Assembly: GCA_012960975.1 (NCBI GenBank)
Contig: DUAE01000024.1
Location: forward strand, 1-35,131
Source: Candidatus Poseidoniales archaeon
Lineage (GTDB): Archaea; Thermoplasmatota; Poseidoniia; Poseidoniales; Thalassarchaeaceae
DNA length: 35,131 nucleotides
Direction of reading: 5' to 3'
Below the pieces are notes generated by a model. That model searched no databases. It saw only the letters and a list, made by a program, of their open reading frames with translations, and was not told the DNA's origin. Positions 4,711 to 22,297 of the stretch are shown piece by piece (within the stretch, counting starts at the first letter, position 1; every line of letters begins with the position of its first letter). A program made the translations under genes and the position numbers.

Positions 4711-6150
4711 TCAGAGGATTTCATCTTCGCCGATGTGTAAATCACCTTCAAAAATCGCAACTAATTCATGAATGTCAATTTGACCATCATGATTTACATC
4801 GATGTTCTCGAACATTGCCGCCAAATCATCTTCGTCGATCTCTTCTCCCATATTATCAATTATCGTCAAAAATCTTTTCAGCGCATATTCTCCTTTTTCT
4901 CGGCGGCTTTGTTGTGAGTCTTGTAGTGGAATGAGTGCAGAAAATAACATCGGAGCGAATACCACAGTGATGATTGCTACGAGAATAATTGCTGAATTCA
5001 TTGCTTCATTGATGATTTCAAGATCTAATGCAATCATTGAGGCGGCAATGATTAGTGAAAGACGCGCAGAGAGAAGTGAACCAGCGGCAATCGATTCCTT
5101 CCAGCTAAAAGCAAATCGGAAGATTAGAGATGGAATGAACTTGACTGCGATTGCCGCGCCCAGAATCACTGGAACTATCAACATCGCTTCTCTTGAGTTG
5201 ACCAATTCTGGAAGATTAAATCCGACTCCTACGAGGACAAAGAAGATTGGGATAAAGAAGGAAAATCCAAAGGCCTCTAATTCTCTCTTGACACGCCTAT
5301 CTTTGGAAGTGCTCAGTAAAGAAATAATAACACCAGCGATGAAAGCACCGAGGATCATTTCTGTGTTCAGCACCTCAGCGAGAACGATAAAAGAAACCAT
5401 CAATGCAAGGCTTGCACGCAATTTGATTTTTGCGGTAGCGTGAGAAAGATCTTCGAGCAAATTAGAAAACATTGGGATGCTTTGGATAATCTTACCGGTG
5501 CGATAAAGTGCGGCGAAGGCGACAAATAGCAGGAATACGAGCAACATCTTCGGACTAATCGAGCCTTCTACAAGATAGGTAGCATAAAGTGAAATCAATA
5601 ACATTGTCACAAAATCAGCGAGCAAAGCAGTCAACAAAATAGTCTGACCAAATGTGGTTTCGTTCAAATGACGTTCTTTCAAAACCGGCAAGACCACACC
5701 GAGTGAGGTTGTTGATAGAATTAACGCGAGCATCCATGGGTCGACGATGAATCCTTGTTGGACGATAAGAAGGGAGAGAATTACAGAGGTCGCAAGAGTC
5801 ATCGAAAAGGAAGCCGGACCGAGAATTATCGGATTTTGATAGAAGGCCAAATCCTGACGCTCACGAGATTTTTTCGCGATTTCTCCGAGTATATTGAAAT
5901 CGATTTCCATTCCTGCAATAAACATCAGATAAGCGAGGCCGAAATCGCGCATGAATAGTATTACTTCTGAATCTATAATGACCAAATCTAAAACGCTGGG
6001 GCCAAGAATAATTCCAGCAATAATTTCACCAACAACTATCGGTACTTGTAAGGTAGTATTTCTTGAAAGCAATATTGGGACAAGAAAAGCGGCCAATAAA
6101 ACGAACATTAAAGAAATGAAATTGGTATCAAAAATTGCTTCTGCAGTCAC
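4711..6150 (-). CDS. CPA2-type cation/proton antiporter with C-terminal EF-hand
   Basis: A 479-residue protein. Residues about 10-405 form a multi-helix monovalent cation:proton antiporter domain (KefB/NapA-like), with the characteristic EIIAGIILGPSVL, LLADF, EMILGAFIAGVII and FFIPIFFVLVGVGFNL segments. Instead of the TrkA-N/C regulatory domains usual in Kef proteins, it ends in an acidic cytoplasmic tail with a canonical 12-residue EF-hand loop, DVNHDGQIDIHE (residues 451-462, bases 4765-4800). Ligand positions 1, 3, 5, 9 and 12 are D, N, D, D and E, and Gly is at 6. This suggests Ca2+-gated or Ca2+-sensed ion exchange. The ion is unknown. It is divergent from the PLC-like gene, with a 116-bp gap. 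Confidence 0.88.
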   Translation of the reverse strand: MTAEAIFDTNFISLMFVLLAAFLVPILLSRNTTLQVPIVVGEIIAGIILGPSVLDLVIIDSEVILFMRDFGLAYLMFIAGMEIDFNILGEIAKKSRERQDLAFYQNPIILGPASFSMTLATSVILSLLIVQQGFIVDPWMLALILSTTSLGVVLPVLKERHLNETTFGQTILLTALLADFVTMLLISLYATYLVEGSISPKMLLVFLLFVAFAALYRTGKIIQSIPMFSNLLEDLSHATAKIKLRASLALMVSFIVLAEVLNTEMILGAFIAGVIISLLSTSKDRRVKRELEAFGFSFFIPIFFVLVGVGFNLPELVNSREAMLIVPVILGAAIAVKFIPSLIFRFAFSWKESIAAGSLLSARLSLIIAASMIALDLEIINEAMNSAIILVAIITVVFAPMLFSALIPLQDSQQSRREKGEYALKRFLTIIDNMGEEIDEDDLAAMFENIDVNHDGQIDIHELVAIFEGDLHIGEDEIL

Positions 6151-6266: not shown

Positions 6267-7298
6267 ATGAAAATGAACCGCCTCGCATCGATTTTGGCTT
6301 TGCTGATGATAACAACTATCTTCAGCGGATGTCTTGGATTTGGGGACGGGGAATCATCGATTTTTGATGATGACCCGACACCGCTGAATATCAATCATAT
6401 TCAGGTAAAAGGCACACATAATTCGTACCATATCAAGCCGTTTGGACCGACGGCGAGAGCATATGAATACACGCATGAACCCTTGGATGTTCAAGCAGGT
6501 GAGTTTGACGTTCGGCAGTTTGAACTCGATGTTTGGTGGGATCCACGAGGCGATTTACGAGTTTATCACAATCAATACGATTCTAGAAGCACCTGCAATA
6601 CTCTCGCTGATTGTTTAGGTGTGTTGAATACTTGGTCAGATGCTAATCCAACCCATGTACCATTGATGATTTGGGTAGAGCCAAAAGAATGGGTAGAACA
6701 AGCTTCTGATATTACGACCATTGCCGAGCTGCAAGGCATGCTCGAAAAAATTGAAGAAGAAATTAAGCAAAATTGGCCTGATGAGAAATTGATTACTCCC
6801 GACGATGTACGTGGAGAGGCAGCGAGTTTGTCCGAGGCTGTAACAACAAATGGCTGGCCATTATTAGAAGAGTCTCGCGGCAAGGCGATTTTCATTCTGT
6901 TAGCGGGTGGAGGAATTAGGGAAGAATACCACCAAAATTTTCCTGGTTTAGTCGGCTCAACAATGTTCACAATGTCTGTTGAAGGTACACCAGAAGCGGC
7001 AATTTTCTCCAATACCGACCCGATTGGTAATGGAGATCAAATTCGCAATCTTGTCGAAGAAGGATACATCGTTCGCAGCCGAGCAGACGATGCCGAGGAT
7101 GGAGAGGCTGATAGCAATAATACAGTGAGATTGGAGGCTGCAATTGCTAGTGGTGCTCATTCGATTTCAACCGATTATCCCGCTAAGGTAGAAGATATCG
7201 ACTACTGGGTTGAGTTGCCGGATGGGCCAGTCGCTTGCAATCCGGTTTCTGCACCACCGGACTGTACAGCCGAACGAATAGAATCGTCACCAACCTAG
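6267..7298 (+). CDS. Lipoprotein related to Ca2+-dependent phosphoinositide phospholipase C
   Basis: 343 residues. The N-terminus is a lipoprotein signal: a hydrophobic stretch (LASILALLMITTIF) then lipobox FSGC with Cys22. The domain that follows has the PI-PLC layout: KGTHNSYH with catalytic-type His51 and Asn52, RQFELDVWWD with Glu/Asp metal ligands at about 87-89, and VYHNQYD with the second His101. These match the Ca2+-dependent PI-PLC family, which cleaves phosphoinositide or glycerophosphodiester head groups. Family-level substrate is known, but the substrate here is not. The protein would be anchored outside the membrane. It is divergent from the EF-hand antiporter and convergent with the RidA-fusion gene. 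Distant glycerophosphodiesterases are the alternative reading. Confidence 0.78.
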   Translation: MKMNRLASILALLMITTIFSGCLGFGDGESSIFDDDPTPLNINHIQVKGTHNSYHIKPFGPTARAYEYTHEPLDVQAGEFDVRQFELDVWWDPRGDLRVYHNQYDSRSTCNTLADCLGVLNTWSDANPTHVPLMIWVEPKEWVEQASDITTIAELQGMLEKIEEEIKQNWPDEKLITPDDVRGEAASLSEAVTTNGWPLLEESRGKAIFILLAGGGIREEYHQNFPGLVGSTMFTMSVEGTPEAAIFSNTDPIGNGDQIRNLVEEGYIVRSRADDAEDGEADSNNTVRLEAAIASGAHSISTDYPAKVEDIDYWVELPDGPVACNPVSAPPDCTAERIESSPT

Positions 7299-7334: not shown

Positions 7335-7988
7335 TCAGATTTTAGCGATAACCTTCAACTCGACCGCAATAGAGGTTGGAAGGGCGCGAACAGCACAAGT
7401 AGTTCGAGCACATAGAATCTCAGAGAAATACTCTGCATAGACCTCATTATATCCTGCAAAATCCCGGTCCATATCAACGAGGAAAGATAGGCAATCAACC
7501 ACCTTGTCTAAGGATGAGCCAGCATCTTCAAGAATTATTTTGATATTCTCGATTACCGCTCTAGTTTGTGCTCGAATATCGTAATCGAGAGGATCGCCAT
7601 TCGCATCTTTAATCGGGCCACCCGGAATTTTATTGGTAATCGGTTGGCGCGGACCAATACCTGATACAAAAAGCAAATTTCCAACACGGAATGCATGAGG
7701 ATAAGCCCCAACTGCAGACGGTGCATTCTCTGAAATTATTGGTCCGTCTTCGTTAATTATTGTGCCCGCAGTTTTCCTCCCAACAACTCCGCCAACAATT
7801 GCTCCAACCGGTCCACCAACTGCAATACCAGCTGCTGCACCGAGTGCTCCACCAGCCGAGTAGGCCATCGATTTACCGTAATTATCATACAATTTTTCAA
7901 TAAATTCATCAGGAGCATCGATAATTCCTGCGATTAAGGCTCGTCGATATTCAAAACTAGTCTGTTCATCGACATCCTCTGTCATCAC
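7335..7988 (-). CDS. RidA/2-aminomuconate deaminase-like protein with N-terminal glycine zipper
   Basis: 217 residues, against about 130-145 for ordinary RidA. Residues 45-72 are a glycine-zipper segment (GGALGAAAGIAVGG, GAIVGGVVG) of the kind that inserts into or packs against membranes. Residues about 85-217 are a complete RidA/YjgF domain with LLFVSGIGP, a core helix IENIKIILEDAGSSLDKVV and the CARTT...AVELK block, in which Arg195 and Glu210 align with the imine-binding Arg105 and Glu120 of E. coli RidA. The start ATG overlaps the stop of the upstream LigB-like gene (ATGA), so translation is coupled. Bacterial 2-aminomuconate deaminases belong to this family and sit beside AmnB/AmnA dioxygenases, as here. 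A generic enamine/imine deaminase is the alternative. Confidence 0.8.
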   Translation of the reverse strand: MMTEDVDEQTSFEYRRALIAGIIDAPDEFIEKLYDNYGKSMAYSAGGALGAAAGIAVGGPVGAIVGGVVGRKTAGTIINEDGPIISENAPSAVGAYPHAFRVGNLLFVSGIGPRQPITNKIPGGPIKDANGDPLDYDIRAQTRAVIENIKIILEDAGSSLDKVVDCLSFLVDMDRDFAGYNEVYAEYFSEILCARTTCAVRALPTSIAVELKVIAKI

Positions 7989-8920
7989 AGCATCCCCTTA
8001 TCGAGCACATCACGGTCCCCGTGGTAGAATTCAACATCATCTTCATCAAATTCTTTATCGCCAAAAGACCCATCGGTTGGAGTCAAAGTAATTACCGCTC
8101 CACCAGAGCCATGTAGGGCTTCGTAAGCCAACACTTCGCCAGCGTAATTATTGTGCTGACCCATGGTTGCAGCCATCCACCAGGCTGGCTTGTATGCCAC
8201 CACTTTGCTGACTCTTATTTGACCGTGAATGTCTCGACTTAATTGACTCAAATCCTCTAATCGTCCTGCTGCGAAGAATTCCAATATTTTTCGATTCCAA
8301 TCATCGTCTTTTTGTGAATGAATCCGGTCATCTACCTCATCGATGTGTTCGGTAAACATACGATTTGACAAACTTGCTACAACTACGACAATCGCCTTCT
8401 TGCCCTGTTCTGCCAGAACATCACGAGCAGCCTTGCCGAGAACGATTGTTTCGGCTCGATTCGCATACATATTGCTCGATACTATACAAGCTGGAATTCG
8501 GTTGTCTGGATTCAATAATTGCAAAGCAACAACCGAGCCGGTATCGATTGGGAATCCCTCATATGCAACTGTGCGCGAATGGAGTCCTCGTTTCTCTGCT
8601 GCACTTGCGTATCCATTCGCAAAATCAACATCTATTTTGAAGTCGTATGGCATACCTCCAAGATAATGAAAATCATCGTCAACATGTGTCCAAACAGGAT
8701 TTTCGAGCGCTTGAATTTGATGTCCGACAATGCTCGGCCATGTCGTCGAGTAAATCAAAATTAAATCGGCTTCACTCTCTTCTATGCGCTTGCGGCATGC
8801 ATCGTATGCTGAACGCAGTTTACCATAACCTTCGTTTGCTTCAGGGCATAGCAGAGGATGAGGATGGGGTGGACAGTATATACCGAATAAAATCTCAGGT
8901 TCATTCATTTCTTCAGCCAT
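7985..8920 (-). CDS. LigB-family dioxygenase, AmnA-like non-catalytic subunit
   Basis: 311 residues, a diverged paralogue of the next gene upstream. The fold markers remain (CPPHPHPLL near residue 20, PIDTGSVVALQLL, ASLSNRMF, WWMAATMG), but metal ligands are lost. The PHW motif of the catalytic subunit is STTWP here (about residues 58-62), and the Glu before the C-terminal WMM segment is missing. This is the pattern of the alpha subunit of 2-aminophenol 1,6-dioxygenase, which forms a heterotetramer with the beta subunit and binds no iron. A GAGGTGA ribosome-binding site precedes the ATG and overlaps the stop codon of the upstream gene, so the two subunits are translationally coupled. It overlaps the RidA gene by 4 bp. 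Confidence 0.85.
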   Translation of the reverse strand: MAEEMNEPEILFGIYCPPHPHPLLCPEANEGYGKLRSAYDACRKRIEESEADLILIYSTTWPSIVGHQIQALENPVWTHVDDDFHYLGGMPYDFKIDVDFANGYASAAEKRGLHSRTVAYEGFPIDTGSVVALQLLNPDNRIPACIVSSNMYANRAETIVLGKAARDVLAEQGKKAIVVVVASLSNRMFTEHIDEVDDRIHSQKDDDWNRKILEFFAAGRLEDLSQLSRDIHGQIRVSKVVAYKPAWWMAATMGQHNNYAGEVLAYEALHGSGGAVITLTPTDGSFGDKEFDEDDVEFYHGDRDVLDKGML

Positions 8921-8929
8921 AATCTCACC

Positions 8930-9838
8930 TCAAAGAACGTACTCCCGCGTTTCGTCATTTGGATCCCAAGAAGCAATTAAGTTTCCAGTACCAATAACTG
9001 ATTGATAACCATATATTTCTGCAGAATAATCTGGGTGTCCCATTGCAGCCATCATCCAAATCAGTCCGCCACCCTCAGTTTCTGCAATCGTTTGCTCAGT
9101 AAATTCTGGCATAATATCGATGACTTCACGACTTTTTCCTTGGCGCATCAAATCGATAATTTTCATATCCCAAACGTATTGACTATGATTGTAAATGTGC
9201 TCTAAACTCATGTCCTCGGGCAAAGGCGCCTCGGTGACGAAATGTCTGTGAGAAAGGCTGTGGCTTGATACCAAAACGACGCGCTTGCCGCTTTCTTCGA
9301 TTGCTTTGGCGCAAGCGCGACCCAGCGCGCCAGCCTGCTCGATCATAACTTCTGGTGAGTAATAATGAGTATTCCGATTCGATGAAATCGTCACGATTGG
9401 CTTATCCCAATCGGGATTCAATAAATGGCAACTGGTTATCGTGCCATAATCGACACGAAAATCAGGATTAGTCATCATCTTGGTAATTATTCCAGCCTCA
9501 TCTGCCGCCTCACGCATTTTTTCAGCAAGATCAACATCGACTTTTAGGTCGTAATTGAAACGGAATAGATTTGGGAAAATAGGGTCAACAGATTTCGATT
9601 TGAATTCTGGTAAGCCAAGGAAATGTGTGCCGATATAGGTTTGCCAATGTGGCGTGAAAATAACTATTGCATCATAATCGATATTTTTCAATTTTCTAGC
9701 GAGGCGAGCATATCCCCACCGAAGCGTTTCCCATCCACCTTCGGAATAAGCTTCATTTTGAGGAGGATTATCTGCATAAACAAGGTGAGGTGGATGTGGT
9801 GCGAGGCATCCAAGAACGATTTCACCTTTGGACATCAT
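8930..9838 (-). CDS. LigB-family extradiol dioxygenase, AmnB-like catalytic subunit
   Basis: 302 residues, a class III extradiol ring-cleavage dioxygenase. Recognised features are LAPHPPHLVY with His15, FTPHWQ with His65, the SSHSLSHRHF segment with candidate base His198 (or His194), and ETEGG before WMMAAMG, with Glu254 or Glu256. His15, His65 and Glu254 correspond in spacing to the Fe(II) ligands His13, His62 and Glu251 of Pseudomonas AmnB. The GGWETLRW and KSVDPIFPN segments also look AmnB-like (recalled, not aligned). The family opens the ring of 2-aminophenols or catechols with O2. It is the first gene of a three-gene operon (catalytic subunit, structural subunit, RidA). The exact substrate cannot be read from sequence; protocatechuate-type substrates remain possible. 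Confidence 0.88.
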   Translation of the reverse strand: MMSKGEIVLGCLAPHPPHLVYADNPPQNEAYSEGGWETLRWGYARLARKLKNIDYDAIVIFTPHWQTYIGTHFLGLPEFKSKSVDPIFPNLFRFNYDLKVDVDLAEKMREAADEAGIITKMMTNPDFRVDYGTITSCHLLNPDWDKPIVTISSNRNTHYYSPEVMIEQAGALGRACAKAIEESGKRVVLVSSHSLSHRHFVTEAPLPEDMSLEHIYNHSQYVWDMKIIDLMRQGKSREVIDIMPEFTEQTIAETEGGGLIWMMAAMGHPDYSAEIYGYQSVIGTGNLIASWDPNDETREYVL

Positions 9839-11874: not shown

Positions 11875-11894
11875 TTTTGATTAAGATGTGTATA

Positions 11895-12977
11895 ATGACT
11901 AATGAAGGATGGGTAATTCTGCCATCAAAAGTATTGGATGATGACATTAGATTTTTCACAGAAACATTAGGTATGAAAATGGATACAATCTATCCTGCAG
12001 ATCATCCAAGAGTCGCAGAATTTTCAGGGATGGGATTGCGACTCAGAATCGATATGGATGAAAAGATTTCACCGGGTCTATTACGAATTTGCACCGATGA
12101 AAAGGATGAAAAATTTGCTGGCCATACCCAAATGGTAGCGCCGAATGGAACGGTCGTCGAAATTGCCCCAAACAATCCACCGATGGTAATTCCAAAGACC
12201 GAACATAGTTTCCAAACACGTCGACTAGCCGATAGTGATTCATGGGTAATTGGGCGAGCCGGAATGTATTACCGAGACCTGATTCAAGGTAGACTTGGGG
12301 GTTCGATAATCGCGAGTCATATCAGAATAGCCGAAGGCGGGCCAGTTCCAGATATGGTGCATTATCACAAAGTCGGATTTCAGCTTATTTTCTGCATAAA
12401 TGGCTGGGTTGATGTTGTCTATGAAGATCAGGGTGAACCGATTCGATTAACCGCGGGTGATTGTTTTATTCAACCGCCAGAAATTCGCCATCGAGTGTTG
12501 TTTTCAGGCGATAATTTAGAGGTTGTCGAGATTGGTGTACCGGCAGATCATGTCACAGTCATCGACCATGAAATGGAATTACCGACCGAACATTTGCGAC
12601 CTGATAGGGAATGGCAAGGTCAGAAGTTTGTTCACAATCAAGCCTCGGAAGCGACTTGGCAAGAATTCAGATTACCGGGATTTGTTTGCCGCGACACAAC
12701 AATTTGTGAGAATACCAAAGGTGTCGCGAGTGTTCAGGTTGTCAAACCAAGTGAAGGCAAAACGGTTTGGTCGAGTCACGAAGGAGATATTTTGTTCAAT
12801 TATATCATGAGTGGTGGCTTAACACTCGAAGGAGAAGGCGTAGAGTCACAGATTCTTGGAAAAGGAGATGCATTCGTCATCCCACCAGGAATGAGGGTGA
12901 AATATTCTGATGCGATGCAAGATTTGGAATTGATTGAAGTCTCCGTCCCTGGTGAATTCAAAACTCAATTCGATTAA
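11895..12977 (+). CDS. VOC (glyoxalase-like) domain fused to two cupin domains
   Basis: 360 residues from the ATG at 11895; an ATG at 11886 and a TTG at 11877 are also in frame. Residues about 1-105 resemble a VOC/glyoxalase beta-alpha fold (ILPSKVLDDDIRFFTETLGM, then MGLRLRIDM and VEIAPNNPP). Residues about 155-215 form a cupin with likely metal ligands His156, His158, Gln163 and His199 (HYHKVGFQL, then PPEIRHRVL). Residues about 290-350 form a second cupin (SSHEGDILFNYIMSGG, then GDAFVIPPG) that keeps the fold but few ligands. Such bicupins are often small-molecule dioxygenases or isomerases; the substrate is unknown. It lies two genes from the LigB/RidA operon, so a shared pathway is possible but unproven. 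It overlaps the next, convergent gene by 4 bp. Confidence 0.78.
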   Translation: MTNEGWVILPSKVLDDDIRFFTETLGMKMDTIYPADHPRVAEFSGMGLRLRIDMDEKISPGLLRICTDEKDEKFAGHTQMVAPNGTVVEIAPNNPPMVIPKTEHSFQTRRLADSDSWVIGRAGMYYRDLIQGRLGGSIIASHIRIAEGGPVPDMVHYHKVGFQLIFCINGWVDVVYEDQGEPIRLTAGDCFIQPPEIRHRVLFSGDNLEVVEIGVPADHVTVIDHEMELPTEHLRPDREWQGQKFVHNQASEATWQEFRLPGFVCRDTTICENTKGVASVQVVKPSEGKTVWSSHEGDILFNYIMSGGLTLEGEGVESQILGKGDAFVIPPGMRVKYSDAMQDLELIEVSVPGEFKTQFD

Positions 12978-18946: not shown

Positions 18947-21900
18947 ATGGCAGGGGGAGCCGAGGATGAGATGTCCAGCGAAGCAAAGGCTGGAAATCTG
19001 GGTGTAACTCGTGAAATAGAAGGCGGTACCGCACGCGCTTCAAATGGCAAAATGCCGTTACGAATAATTACCGCAGCAGCGATTTTCGACGGACATGATG
19101 CAGCAATAGGTATTTTTCGTCGAATATTTCAATCGATGGGATGTGAAGTAATTCACCTAGGTCACGATCGTGGAGCGGATGATGTTGCACGGGCGGCAAT
19201 TCAGGAGGATGCTCATTGTGTCGCAATCACATCATACCAAGGTGGAGCAGTTGAAATGTTCACACACACAAAGCAATTACTTGACGAAGCCGGTTACGGA
19301 CATGTCCTTCTCTTCGGGGGTGGTGGTGGAACAATATTACCTCATGAAATTAAACATTTACGCGATTCTGGCATCGCCCGTATCTACTCTACCGATGATG
19401 GCCGAGCCATGGGTTTGACCGGCATGGTTGCGAATGCAATTGAGGAAGCAAGTAAGATTGATTTGCTTGAGGCGGGGCGTTTTAATTCACTTTTGGAACC
19501 AATTTCTGCGGGAGATCATGGAGCAGTATCGCGAATGTTGACCTTGGCAGAAAATTCTGATGAAGAAGAATTCAATCTGGTTTTGGAACGAATTCGTTCT
19601 GTCGATTCCACCTCTGCTTGCCCTGTCATAGGCCTTACCGGAACTGGCGGTGCTGGAAAATCCAGCCTAACCGACGAATTGATGCTGCGTATTCAGCGTG
19701 ATAATCCAGGCTCTAAAATCGCGCTATTGGCGACAGATCCAACCCGAAAAAGAACAGGTGGAGCGCTACTCGGCGATAGGATTCGAATGAATTCGCTCTC
19801 CGATGAAAATTTATTCATGCGCTCATTTGCAAGCCGAGATAGCGGCCGAGAAATCGCGGATTGTATAGGTAATGCAGTCGAACTTTGTCAAGCGGTCGGT
19901 TTCGATTTGGTTATCGTCGAAACCAGTGGAATCGGACAAGGTGACGATGCGATTACCGAAGTTGCAGATATTTCGATATATGTTACGACAAGAGAATATG
20001 GCGCCCCCAGTCAACTCGAGAAGCTTGAGATGTTGGATTCTGCTGACATCGTTGTGCTCAATAAATTCGATCGACCTGGCGCTGAAGATGCTCTTGCTGA
20101 AATTCGTAAACAATTCAAGCGAAATCGAGAATTATGGGAAGCTGAAGATACCGCACTTCCAGTAATTCCAACGATTGCGAGTCAATTTGCGGACGCAGGC
20201 ATCGACCAACTTTGGCAGCACCTCTCCAATATCTTGAACAGCCTCCACAATCAATCATTTGCGGCGGCTGAACCTCGGCTCGGCGCTGATGGATTGCCAC
20301 ACCGAGCCGCACCAATTCCACCAGAAAGACAAGGCTATCTCGCAGAAGTAGCTGCATCGGTCAGAGATTACCATTCTCGAACAGAAGATGCTGCAGCAAA
20401 GATGCGCCTCGTTCAACATCTTGAAGCATCTGCCGTCCAAATGAGGCAAACTGAAAATTCCAATGCCGCTGATGAACTCATTTCCGAGGCTGACAATATC
20501 CGTTCCAGCATCCCAGCGGGAGCTTGGCGAATCCTCAAAGAATTTGAGAAAAAATCCACCGAATATCGCTCTGGGCAAGCGAGTTACACCGTCCGAGGCA
20601 AAGATATCTCGGTCAAAACCACTAGAGAAACCCTCTCTGGATTGAAATTACCACGAGTTGCACTACCCGACCACACTGATTGGGGAGATACTCTCGAATG
20701 GATTCGTCGAGAAAACACTCCTGGTTCTTTCCCTTACACTGGCGGAGTTTTTCCGTTCAAGCGTGAAGACGAACTTCCAGTTCGAATGTTTGCTGGTGAA
20801 GGCAGTGCTGAGCGCACAAACAAGCGCTTCCATTTCCTCTCTGAAGGTCAGCCTTTCAATCGCATATCAACTGCCTTTGACTCCCCCTCACTCTACGGTC
20901 ATGACCCAGTTGAGCGCCTCGATATTTTCGGAAAAGTATGCGAGAGTGGAGTAAGCATCAGCACTGTTGAAGAAATGGAAATTCTCTTCGATGGCTTTGA
21001 TTTATGCGCATCAAATACCAGCGTTTCAAAAACTATCAATGGCAATTACTGGTGGCATCTAGCCGCTTTCTTCACCGTTGCAATTCGCCAACAGGTTAAG
21101 AAATTCGAAAAAGAAAACCAACGAACACCCACCGATGCAGAGCTCAAAGAAATCCGCACTTACACTCTCAGCACCATCAGAGGAACCGTTCAAGCCGATC
21201 AACTCAAGGAATCGATGGGGCAAAACACACTTGTTTTCAATCTTGACACCGCGCTTCGTATGATGGGGGATGTCGCCGAATTTTACGTCGAAAATAACAT
21301 CAGAAATCATTACTTTGTCAGCATCAGCGGTTATCACATCGCTGAAGCTGGGGCAAACCCAATTACACAAGCAGCATTGACGCTTTCAAACGGTCTAACA
21401 TATGTTGAGTTGTTCAAGGCTAGAGGCATTGACCCAAACAAATTTTTGAGAAACTTCAGTTGGTTTTTCTCAAACGGAATGGATCCTGAATACGCCGTGA
21501 TAGGCCGAGTCGCAAGGCGAATCTGGGCGATTGCAATGCGCGATATTTATGCCGTTGACGAGCGAGGGCAGAAATTGAAGTACCACATTCAAAGCAGTGG
21601 GCGAAGTTTACACGCACAGGAGTATACTTGGAACGATTATCGCACGACTTTACAGGCACTTTACGCACTCTCAGACAACGCAAATTCACTTCACACAAAC
21701 TCTCGTGACGAGGCGTTTGGGACACCGACTGAAGAAACAGTCAGAGATTCGATGGCAATTCAGCTCATACTCTCAAAAGAATATGGGTGGCTACAAAATG
21801 AGAACCCGATTCAAGGATCTCATATCGCTAGTTGGTTAACCGATACGGTCGAAGAAGAAATTTTGAAAATATTCGAAGAAATGCACCGCCGCGGCGGAGT

Positions 21901-22297
21901 ATTGGGTGCGCTGGAAGTGAATTACCAGCGCAACCGAATTCAAGATGAGTCGATGATTTACGAGCATAGAAAGCATTCTGGAGAATTACCAATAATTGGA
22001 GTGAATACTTTCGAAGAAGACATCGATAATTCAAATGAGTCGAATGAAGAAGATGATTTCGACATCGAGGTAACACGTTCGAATGAAGCAGAGAGGATGA
22101 TGGTTATCGAACGAAATCAGAAGTTCAAAAAAACCCATTCGAAAGAGGCTGAAGCAGGACTAGAGAAGTTGAAACAAGTCGCTCGAGATGGCGGTAATCT
22201 ATTCGAAGTAATGATGGAAATCGTCGAATATTGCTCGGTTGGACAAGTCACACAAGCGCTGTTTGAAACCGGCGGAAAATTTCGTCGAAATATGTGA
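18947..22297 (+). CDS. icmF: Fused isobutyryl-CoA mutase (IcmF): B12 domain, G-protein chaperone, mutase
   Basis: 1116 residues, full length for IcmF. Residues about 38-170 are the B12-binding domain with FDGHDAAIG; His50 is the expected lower cobalt ligand. Residues about 225-430 are the MeaI-type GTPase chaperone with P-loop GTGGAGKS (about 231-238), LLATDPT, VIVETSGIGQ and NKFD. Residues about 555-1116 are the TIM-barrel mutase, with FPYTGGVFPFKRE, MFAGEGSAERTN and STAFDSPSLYG; the Phe-containing GVFPFKRE block favours an ICM-type rather than methylmalonyl-type pocket. It interconverts isobutyryl-CoA and n-butyryl-CoA using adenosylcobalamin; related substrates such as pivalyl-CoA are possible. 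The fusion is a mainly bacterial architecture. GAGGTC precedes the ATG. Confidence 0.95.
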   Translation: MAGGAEDEMSSEAKAGNLGVTREIEGGTARASNGKMPLRIITAAAIFDGHDAAIGIFRRIFQSMGCEVIHLGHDRGADDVARAAIQEDAHCVAITSYQGGAVEMFTHTKQLLDEAGYGHVLLFGGGGGTILPHEIKHLRDSGIARIYSTDDGRAMGLTGMVANAIEEASKIDLLEAGRFNSLLEPISAGDHGAVSRMLTLAENSDEEEFNLVLERIRSVDSTSACPVIGLTGTGGAGKSSLTDELMLRIQRDNPGSKIALLATDPTRKRTGGALLGDRIRMNSLSDENLFMRSFASRDSGREIADCIGNAVELCQAVGFDLVIVETSGIGQGDDAITEVADISIYVTTREYGAPSQLEKLEMLDSADIVVLNKFDRPGAEDALAEIRKQFKRNRELWEAEDTALPVIPTIASQFADAGIDQLWQHLSNILNSLHNQSFAAAEPRLGADGLPHRAAPIPPERQGYLAEVAASVRDYHSRTEDAAAKMRLVQHLEASAVQMRQTENSNAADELISEADNIRSSIPAGAWRILKEFEKKSTEYRSGQASYTVRGKDISVKTTRETLSGLKLPRVALPDHTDWGDTLEWIRRENTPGSFPYTGGVFPFKREDELPVRMFAGEGSAERTNKRFHFLSEGQPFNRISTAFDSPSLYGHDPVERLDIFGKVCESGVSISTVEEMEILFDGFDLCASNTSVSKTINGNYWWHLAAFFTVAIRQQVKKFEKENQRTPTDAELKEIRTYTLSTIRGTVQADQLKESMGQNTLVFNLDTALRMMGDVAEFYVENNIRNHYFVSISGYHIAEAGANPITQAALTLSNGLTYVELFKARGIDPNKFLRNFSWFFSNGMDPEYAVIGRVARRIWAIAMRDIYAVDERGQKLKYHIQSSGRSLHAQEYTWNDYRTTLQALYALSDNANSLHTNSRDEAFGTPTEETVRDSMAIQLILSKEYGWLQNENPIQGSHIASWLTDTVEEEILKIFEEMHRRGGVLGALEVNYQRNRIQDESMIYEHRKHSGELPIIGVNTFEEDIDNSNESNEEDDFDIEVTRSNEAERMMVIERNQKFKKTHSKEAEAGLEKLKQVARDGGNLFEVMMEIVEYCSVGQVTQALFETGGKFRRNM

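Follow-up and report, generated by a model that had tools for sequence, protein, structure and literature searches.

A 35,131-nucleotide contig of a Candidatus Poseidoniales archaeon (DUAE01000024.1, assembly GCA_012960975.1), hereafter the window, carries three co-directional open reading frames (ORFs) on the reverse strand. These encode a beta-type (8930–9838) and an alpha-type (7985–8920) protein of the LigB family, and a RidA-family protein (7335–7988). Poseidoniales are abundant archaea of the surface ocean. The window corresponds to contig C24 in an archaeal genome (G000) of 1.59 Mb and 82% completeness, and its family is Thalassarchaeaceae, which we take to be marine group IIb. The three genes are examined here as a candidate module for opening and deaminating an aromatic ring derived from tryptophan.

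The beta-type gene encodes 302 amino acids and is predicted to specify an AmnB-like catalytic subunit, that is, the beta subunit of a 2-aminophenol 1,6-dioxygenase. A domain search placed LigB (PF02900) on the protein with an E-value of 1.7e-27. Its best match in the PDB is 3vsg_B, the beta subunit of 2-amino-5-chlorophenol 1,6-dioxygenase (354.7 bits, E 3.9e-105), and the next matches are two further solved beta subunits. In the alignment, H15, H64, and E253 correspond to H13, H62, and E251 of 3vsg_B, which are presumably the residues that bind iron. The original prediction had already described an intact His-His-Glu site and placed its first ligand correctly at His15; the other two, given as His65 and Glu254, are each one position off. 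H15, H64, and H197, which stands for the second-sphere His of the catalytic type, are kept in all 53 aligned beta rows and E253 in 52, the sole exception (L131) being a sequence that stops at a contig end. The protein is also 50–53% identical, over 96–97% of its length, to proteins on five plasmid records, one of which is annotated as CnbCb, a 2-aminophenol 1,6-dioxygenase beta subunit. Because of these five relatives and the recurrence of the block in related genomes, the likeness to AmnB is more than chance.

The alpha-type gene (311 amino acids) appears to encode an AmnA-like subunit, a LigB-family protein without iron ligands. PF02900 matched it at 9.2e-15, and its best PDB match is 3vsg_A, an alpha subunit (E 1.1e-39). 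As had been proposed, this second paralogue has lost the ligands, and so have alpha rows generally: across 45 of them, His occurs at site one in two and at site two in none, and Glu at site three in two. The proposed coupling of the genes also stands in outline. A Shine-Dalgarno-like GAGGTGAG (8924–8931, reverse strand) precedes the alpha gene and overlaps the beta stop codon, as described before. The start of the RidA gene does overlap the alpha stop codon TGA (7987–7985) at the second junction, by 4 bases if the start is GTG or by 1 base if it is ATG, which corrects the simple ATGA overlap suggested earlier.

Phylogeny assigned the two LigB proteins to the expected subunits. The tree came from a quick maximum-likelihood search of 102 rows without bootstrap, in a sample that leaves MEMO, PcmA, and LigAB outside; 4 of 27 alpha loci (L125, L157, L171, L180) were left out of the alignments and the tree. 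Each window protein falls inside its own clade, beta or alpha, with an SH-aLRT of 99. The beta clade of 53 rows (99) contains the solved subunits 3vsg_B, 8ihg_A, and 7txy_B and excludes four other LigB-family dioxygenases, so the first protein falls in an AmnB-type clade in this tree, and the non-dioxygenase placement that would have refuted the prediction was not seen among the rows covered. Within it, 45 beta rows from the clusters discussed below (99) form an unresolved fork with seven known AmnB rows (99) and 7txy_B. The 40 alpha rows from the clusters (98) stand beside five known alpha rows (99). The root of this tree is weak, since the four-dioxygenase outgroup is small and long-branched, and the program itself warned that it may have joined the alpha and beta sides falsely.

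The third gene was predicted from the start to encode a RidA-family protein, and PF01042 confirmed this at 2.8e-26 over residues 87–216 of its 217. It is a candidate 2-aminomuconate deaminase, read from a GTG start or from an ATG at 7985. Its best PDB match is a 2-aminomuconate deaminase (6izh, 88.0 bits), with another RidA protein (2csl, 87.2 bits) less than one bit behind. The original prediction did not mention an N-terminal extension of residues 1–85 (7734–7988, reverse strand), which contains a glycine-zipper-like hydrophobic stretch, GGALGAAAGIAVGGPVGAIVGGVVG. This extension recurs in several genera of the window's family, lies between the two domains in the fused proteins of L024, L028, and L029, and is missing in other relatives, e.g., L040, L041, and L045. 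The linkage of the three genes is conserved in relatives. In a second family (f2), alpha and RidA form a single ORF of 463–518 amino acids in all 11 loci, and within the window's own family (f1) a clear alpha-RidA fusion occurs in L024, L028, L029, L032, and L048. Such fusions are good evidence that both products act together.

The pathway that contains these genes appears to be near-universal in the Poseidoniales genomes sampled. Of 97 related genomes, 90 have a beta-type match, as do all 27 whose completeness is at least 90% and whose contamination is at most 5%; the sole match in G056 is of the alpha kind by score. A dehydrogenase (E at most 1e-100) was found in 89 of 95 relatives, and tryptophan 2,3-dioxygenase (TDO, PF03301) in 92 of 95, that of the window included. 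The semialdehyde dehydrogenase reported as missing is outside the window, as stated, and its gene lies on another contig of this genome (G000:C1:80720-82174). It appears to be of the aminomuconate-semialdehyde type: for a homologue at L035, the top seven PDB sequences are 2-aminomuconate 6-semialdehyde dehydrogenases (449–424 bits), and the next match scores 368. In the window's genome, the dehydrogenase gene closes a block (L088) in the order formyltransferase-like, SDR, luciferase-like flavin monooxygenase (LLM), asparaginase-like, and dehydrogenase, and TDO is found on a third contig (G000:C19:6632-7627). In family f2 and some genomes of f1, the LLM, an asparaginase-II-like hydrolase, and the aldehyde dehydrogenase are located upstream of the beta/alpha/RidA block; in f2, a ketopantoate hydroxymethyltransferase gene and others are interposed between the two sets. 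TDO was also considered as a close neighbour of its supposed partners in Poseidoniales and was rejected as such, as 14 loci show heme A/CtaB-type genes, thiolase, and others by eye. For this reason, the link to tryptophan comes from marine group III and from bacteria.

That link is seen in a genome of the same class (G174), where locus L102 encodes TDO, SDR, LLM, asparaginase-like, dehydrogenase, beta, alpha, RidA, and formyltransferase-like proteins on one strand, with junctions of −11 to +12 bases. Identical families in identical order were found at L149, L152, L172, L175, and L182. A gap of about 1 kb separates the dehydrogenase and beta genes in all of these five except L152. In L149, L172, and L182, it holds an ORF of 322–336 amino acids that is hydrolase-like by eye (L149:12064-13041, L182:13783-14751), possibly another step of the pathway in several marine group III operons. 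In another archaeal lineage, G150 carries a TDO ORF (PF03301, 2.5e-31) upstream of the LLM, asparaginase-like, dehydrogenase, beta, and fused alpha-RidA genes. The cluster of G120 includes a KynB-like gene, with no TDO in the stretch covered. The presence of TDO and the pathway genes in one operon in relatives indicates that the substrate is probably derived from tryptophan. The earlier suggestion that the route might be short or different proved a good one, both for the dehydrogenase encoded elsewhere in the genome and for the probable origin of the substrate. That the window encodes an AmnB/AmnA-type dioxygenase and that its pathway serves tryptophan breakdown are together very probably correct, to judge from these sequence comparisons.

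The distribution of the cluster was surveyed by scanning named genomes for the LLM. Of 422 relatives, we examined the best 80 in order of resemblance to an actinomycete protein, so the counts are not a census. Gene presence was scored with limits of our own choice and tallied on the LLM strand only; many contigs end within the cluster, and contig ends hide genes. We assigned 31 loci to Poseidoniia and 49 to other organisms from their titles and the genes present. Planctomycetota, Myxococcota, other former Deltaproteobacteria, Acidobacteria, Latescibacterota, and Krumholzibacteriota are among the latter, as are two actinomycetes and one other Thermoplasmata archaeon (L141). At the 31 Poseidoniia loci, SDR, asparaginase-like, and dehydrogenase genes were each found in 31, beta, alpha, and RidA each in 7, and TDO in 6. 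At the 49 others, the counts were 38 for SDR, 33 each for asparaginase-like and dehydrogenase, 21 for beta, 20 for alpha, and 17 each for TDO and RidA. Among the 31 non-Poseidoniia loci with at least 2.5 kb upstream and at least 6.5 kb downstream, an asparaginase-like gene was found in 22 and a beta gene in 16. The asparaginase-like gene follows the LLM within 250 bases in 62 of the 80 loci.

Several single loci deserve a remark. In Paractinoplanes pyxinae (L106:5553-11227), genes for tryptophan synthase alpha and for an ornithine cyclodeaminase-like protein lie close to an LLM relative. A nearby PALP enzyme is tryptophan synthase beta by eye, and the outermost part of the locus holds a weak, short TDO match (45.8 bits). 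In Amycolatopsis antarctica (L107:8203-11248), the LLM relative adjoins an ORF resembling TDO (34% over 127 residues) and another that is methyltransferase-like by eye. The other cluster genes tested are absent, and the same initial reactions perhaps serve biosynthesis here. A locus titled Klebsiella pneumoniae (L122, SDR-LLM-dehydrogenase) belongs to a metagenome-assembled genome whose title is probably wrong. The LLM homologue of S. clavuligerus was rejected as an example of the cluster, as no other query family matched in its 25.2 kb.

The LLM was modelled from 34 aligned sequences with a mean pLDDT of 89.4; of 37 rows, L119 was left out for a stop codon, and L157 and L180 as a precaution. 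Foldseek matched the model to the monooxygenase 2i7g_A (E 2.2e-15) and to bacterial luciferase 1luc_A (2.4e-14). Structural comparison gave Z scores up to 30.3 with flavin monooxygenases of the luciferase group, 29.8 with luciferase, and 26.0 with 3,6-diketocamphane monooxygenase, a type II Baeyer–Villiger enzyme. The LLM thus shares its fold with these enzymes over the whole chain (Z 26–30), unlike them in sequence, as it is only 11–19% identical to the solved structures listed. The grouping of type II Baeyer–Villiger monooxygenases takes in both bacterial luciferases and diketocamphane monooxygenases, according to the relevant part of PMC8706424. A fold neighbour, RslO1, was rejected as a known Baeyer–Villiger enzyme and is not counted as support; this role belongs to RslO9 in the section of PMC7221717 that treats it.

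The asparaginase-like protein resembles Class 3 L-asparaginases (Rhizobium etli ReAV/ReAIV, PF06089). Residues were numbered via an annotated plasmid homologue from Rhizobium, taken as ReAV minus 2, and 2 of 64 loci were left out. Equivalents of ReAV Ser48, Lys51, Ser80, and Lys263, which form both Ser-Lys dyads, are kept in 72 of 72 rows; variants of ReAV in these four residues are inactive, as described in the pertinent part of PMC8602277. The same part gives Cys135, Lys138, and Cys189 as the Zn site and Zn as dispensable for catalysis. Unlike the Class 3 enzymes, all 72 rows hold Glu or Gln in place of Lys138 and Asp in place of Cys249; Cys135 is retained in 63 rows, as is Cys189. Owing to the uniform replacement of Lys138, the family is not classed as L-asparaginase. 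With its hydrolase core kept and its pocket uniformly altered, the family would seem to act on a different substrate.

The removal of the formyl group appears to differ between lineages. In bacterial clusters, the gene after alpha-RidA matches arylformamidase TIGR03035, scoring 201.6 bits where the cut-off is 223 (E 1.3e-59). On the LLM strand, KynB-like genes were found at none of the 31 Poseidoniia loci and at 18 of the 49 others, and formyltransferase-like genes at 29 of 31 and none of 49, respectively. In whole genomes, PF04199 (KynB-type arylformamidase) was absent from all 25 Poseidoniia searched and present in 8 of 14 controls. G120 and G150, the two other Thermoplasmatota tested, have it as well, next to the fused alpha-RidA gene. 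This reciprocal distribution suggests a replacement, in which the formyltransferase-like protein of Poseidoniia seems to fill the step that arylformamidase serves elsewhere. The formyltransferase-like proteins (PF00551) keep the motif Asn-x-His-Pro-Gly and a downstream Asp in 37 of 37 aligned rows, with 3 of 29 loci left out. The Asn, His, and Asp concerned are, we assume, the catalytic residues of formyltransferases.

A pathway that would unite these genes can be proposed. TDO would produce N-formylkynurenine, which would be deformylated to kynurenine by arylformamidase in bacteria or by the formyltransferase-like protein in Poseidoniia. A Baeyer–Villiger oxidation of kynurenine by the LLM, in which the electron-rich ring migrates, would then give the beta-aryl (2-aminophenyl) ester of aspartate. 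In ortho-amino aryl esters, the acyl group tends to shift to nitrogen, and the ester may therefore isomerise to N4-(2-hydroxyphenyl)-L-asparagine, an asparagine anilide. The asparaginase-II-like enzyme could hydrolyse either compound to L-aspartate and 2-aminophenol. The presence of an asparaginase-type enzyme next to the LLM would be explained in this way, because both the ester and the anilide are asparagine analogues. AmnB/AmnA would open 2-aminophenol, its classical substrate, to 2-aminomuconate 6-semialdehyde, the dehydrogenase would oxidise this to 2-aminomuconate, and RidA would hydrolyse the enamine to 4-oxalocrotonate and ammonia. The steps after 2-aminophenol are modelled on the amn pathway as outlined in the portion of the review PMC4539516 that covers it. 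The operon and the tie to tryptophan can be read from the sequences, and the chemistry from kynurenine to 2-aminophenol, like everything after the deaminase, is what we infer from them. On balance, we give a probability of roughly two in three that the three genes of the window carry out ring cleavage and deamination in a tryptophan pathway that runs through a Baeyer–Villiger route. The formation of 2-aminophenol by Baeyer–Villiger oxidation and hydrolysis is itself probable. A wider proposal is favoured by a small measure only: a kynureninase-free pathway, shared by Poseidoniia and many uncultured bacterial phyla, that uses Baeyer–Villiger chemistry and an asparaginase-derived hydrolase, and in which Poseidoniia recover the formyl group by a formyltransferase-like enzyme, possibly onto a folate-type carrier.

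A number of observations weigh against the Baeyer–Villiger route. The parts in the window's own genome are on three contigs, so that their linkage rests on relatives. At L100, no TDO was found within 19.9 kb. No asparaginase-like gene was found at 16 of the 80 LLM loci, and it is absent even from 9 of the 31 roomy non-Poseidoniia loci (L106, L107, L116, L120, L123, L126, L128, L148, L159); the LLM stands alone at L106, L120, L126, and L128 and with TDO only at L107. F420-dependent enzymes of the LLM fold score not far below the best matches (Z about 25), and the modelled LLM could hydroxylate its substrate instead. The dehydrogenase is below the cut-off of 693 bits for 2-hydroxymuconic semialdehyde dehydrogenase (TIGR03216), at 557 bits in the window's genome and 568 bits at L102, and the RidA match to AmnD is tied with that to another RidA protein. 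The scheme has no role for the SDR, and it leaves out the lower pathway beyond 4-oxalocrotonate. The classical lower-pathway aldolase (TIGR03217) exceeded its cut-off in none of 27 genomes, with weak matches in 25, and equally in none of 14 controls, E. coli included; the FAA-hydrolase family PF01557 was found in 25 of 27, a family too broad for assignment.

Other uses of the same genes must be weighed beside it. The LLM might produce 3-hydroxykynurenine, whose ring AmnB/AmnA would open, with the dehydrogenase and RidA acting on the substituted product and the asparaginase-like enzyme removing the side chain later. This uses the same genes and the same link to tryptophan and makes kynureninase unnecessary. 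Moreover, 3-hydroxykynurenine is itself an ortho-aminophenol, and AmnB/AmnA may need only that group. We nevertheless regard it as unlikely, as the best-known enzymes of the luciferase group do not hydroxylate aromatics, the immediate succession of LLM and asparaginase-like genes in most loci suggests consecutive steps, and AmnB and the dehydrogenase resemble enzymes for unsubstituted substrates. Another alternative has nothing to do with tryptophan: the cells would simply take up free 2-aminophenol or other aromatic amines and break them down, as Pseudomonas sp. AP-3 does. This would fit the AmnB/AmnA/dehydrogenase/RidA set, which has the make-up of the amn/cnb pathways. It would also fit the five close plasmid relatives, which include CnbCb of Comamonas CNB-1 and a protein from an aniline-contaminated site. 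Against this stand the TDO gene in the operon at six Poseidoniia loci (L102, L149, L152, L172, L175, L182), the same-strand TDO and KynB-like formamidase genes at 17 and 18 of the 49 other loci, and a near-universal occurrence in the relatives sampled, which would be odd for a xenobiotic route; we consider it very improbable.

The canonical kynurenine route, in which a divergent kynureninase would yield anthranilate or 3-hydroxyanthranilate for cleavage by AmnB/AmnA, accords with the presence of TDO and leaves the LLM and asparaginase-like genes without a role. Of 24 archaeal genomes, only G028 has kynureninase (TIGR01814) above the cut-off; 2 of 14 controls do, and the window's genome, at 82% completeness, does not. 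TDO was found in all 19 bacterial cluster genomes, which are metagenome bins of unstated completeness, and kynureninase over the cut-off in none of them. 3-Hydroxyanthranilate dioxygenase (PF06052) was over its cut-off in 2 of the 24 archaeal genomes, one at only 25.5 bits, and in neither the window's genome nor any control; a match of 162 bits in G028 indicates that the search works, though no control genome matched. Some evidence does favour this route and counts against ours. Kynureninase matches below the cut-off occur in G018, G025, and G061 and in 4 of the 19 bacterial genomes, and G028 has a full-scoring kynureninase and a strong 3-hydroxyanthranilate dioxygenase (contigs C29 and C44; L071 and L065). 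Either the canonical route operates there in addition, or these contigs are foreign. For the window genes, the canonical route is a poor candidate with a very low probability.

The proposed tryptophan route via Baeyer–Villiger oxidation thus borrows from known systems and departs from each. Like the amn/cnb pathways of Pseudomonas sp. AP-3 and Comamonas CNB-1 (AmnB, AmnA, AmnC, AmnD), it has a His-His-Glu beta subunit and a ligand-less alpha subunit, with a dehydrogenase apparently of the aminomuconate-semialdehyde type and a RidA protein encoded alongside in relatives. Unlike them, the archaeal and bacterial relatives link this module to TDO, formamidase, LLM, and asparaginase-like genes, and alpha is often fused to RidA; no LLM or asparaginase-like gene was found by tblastn or blastp at the loci of CNB-1, Novosphingobium, and Burkholderia. 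With the kynurenine pathway it shares the start by TDO and, in bacterial clusters and the two non-Poseidoniia Thermoplasmatota, the KynB-type arylformamidase. It differs from the anthranilate and 3-hydroxyanthranilate branches in that kynureninase and 3-hydroxyanthranilate dioxygenase exceed their cut-offs in few of the genomes searched, and an LLM and an asparaginase-like hydrolase are present instead.

If this proposal is true, Poseidoniales would possess an oxygen-dependent and near-universal means of tryptophan ring opening, and there would be a reason why a genome can hold TDO without kynureninase. It would also assign a role to an uncharacterised family of luciferase-like monooxygenases and to an asparaginase-like family, and provide a natural setting for an aminophenol dioxygenase module known from pollutant degraders. 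No description of this pathway was found in the literature searched, a scope outside which most subscription papers and bioRxiv preprints lie. Likewise, within this scope no published account in Poseidoniales was found under the topics of aromatic compounds or dioxygenases, kynurenine, and tryptophan. The main text of PMC11237513 contains none of the terms dioxygenase, aminophenol, and RidA, and in the accessible portion of PMC10384668, 2-aminophenol is named once, within a reference.

The window encodes other proteins of interest. A double-cupin protein with a TTG start (11877–12977) has no counterpart among the 20 neighbourhoods compared. A sodium/hydrogen exchanger with an EF-hand-like C-terminal segment is encoded at 4711–6150. 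At 6267–7298, this archaeon carries a gene for a Ca-dependent phosphoinositide phospholipase C-like protein (PF16670, 6.3e-72), whose start is lipoprotein-like by eye. An ORF of 1116 amino acids (18947–22297) reads like what we take to be a cobalamin-dependent acyl-CoA mutase fused to its G-protein chaperone.

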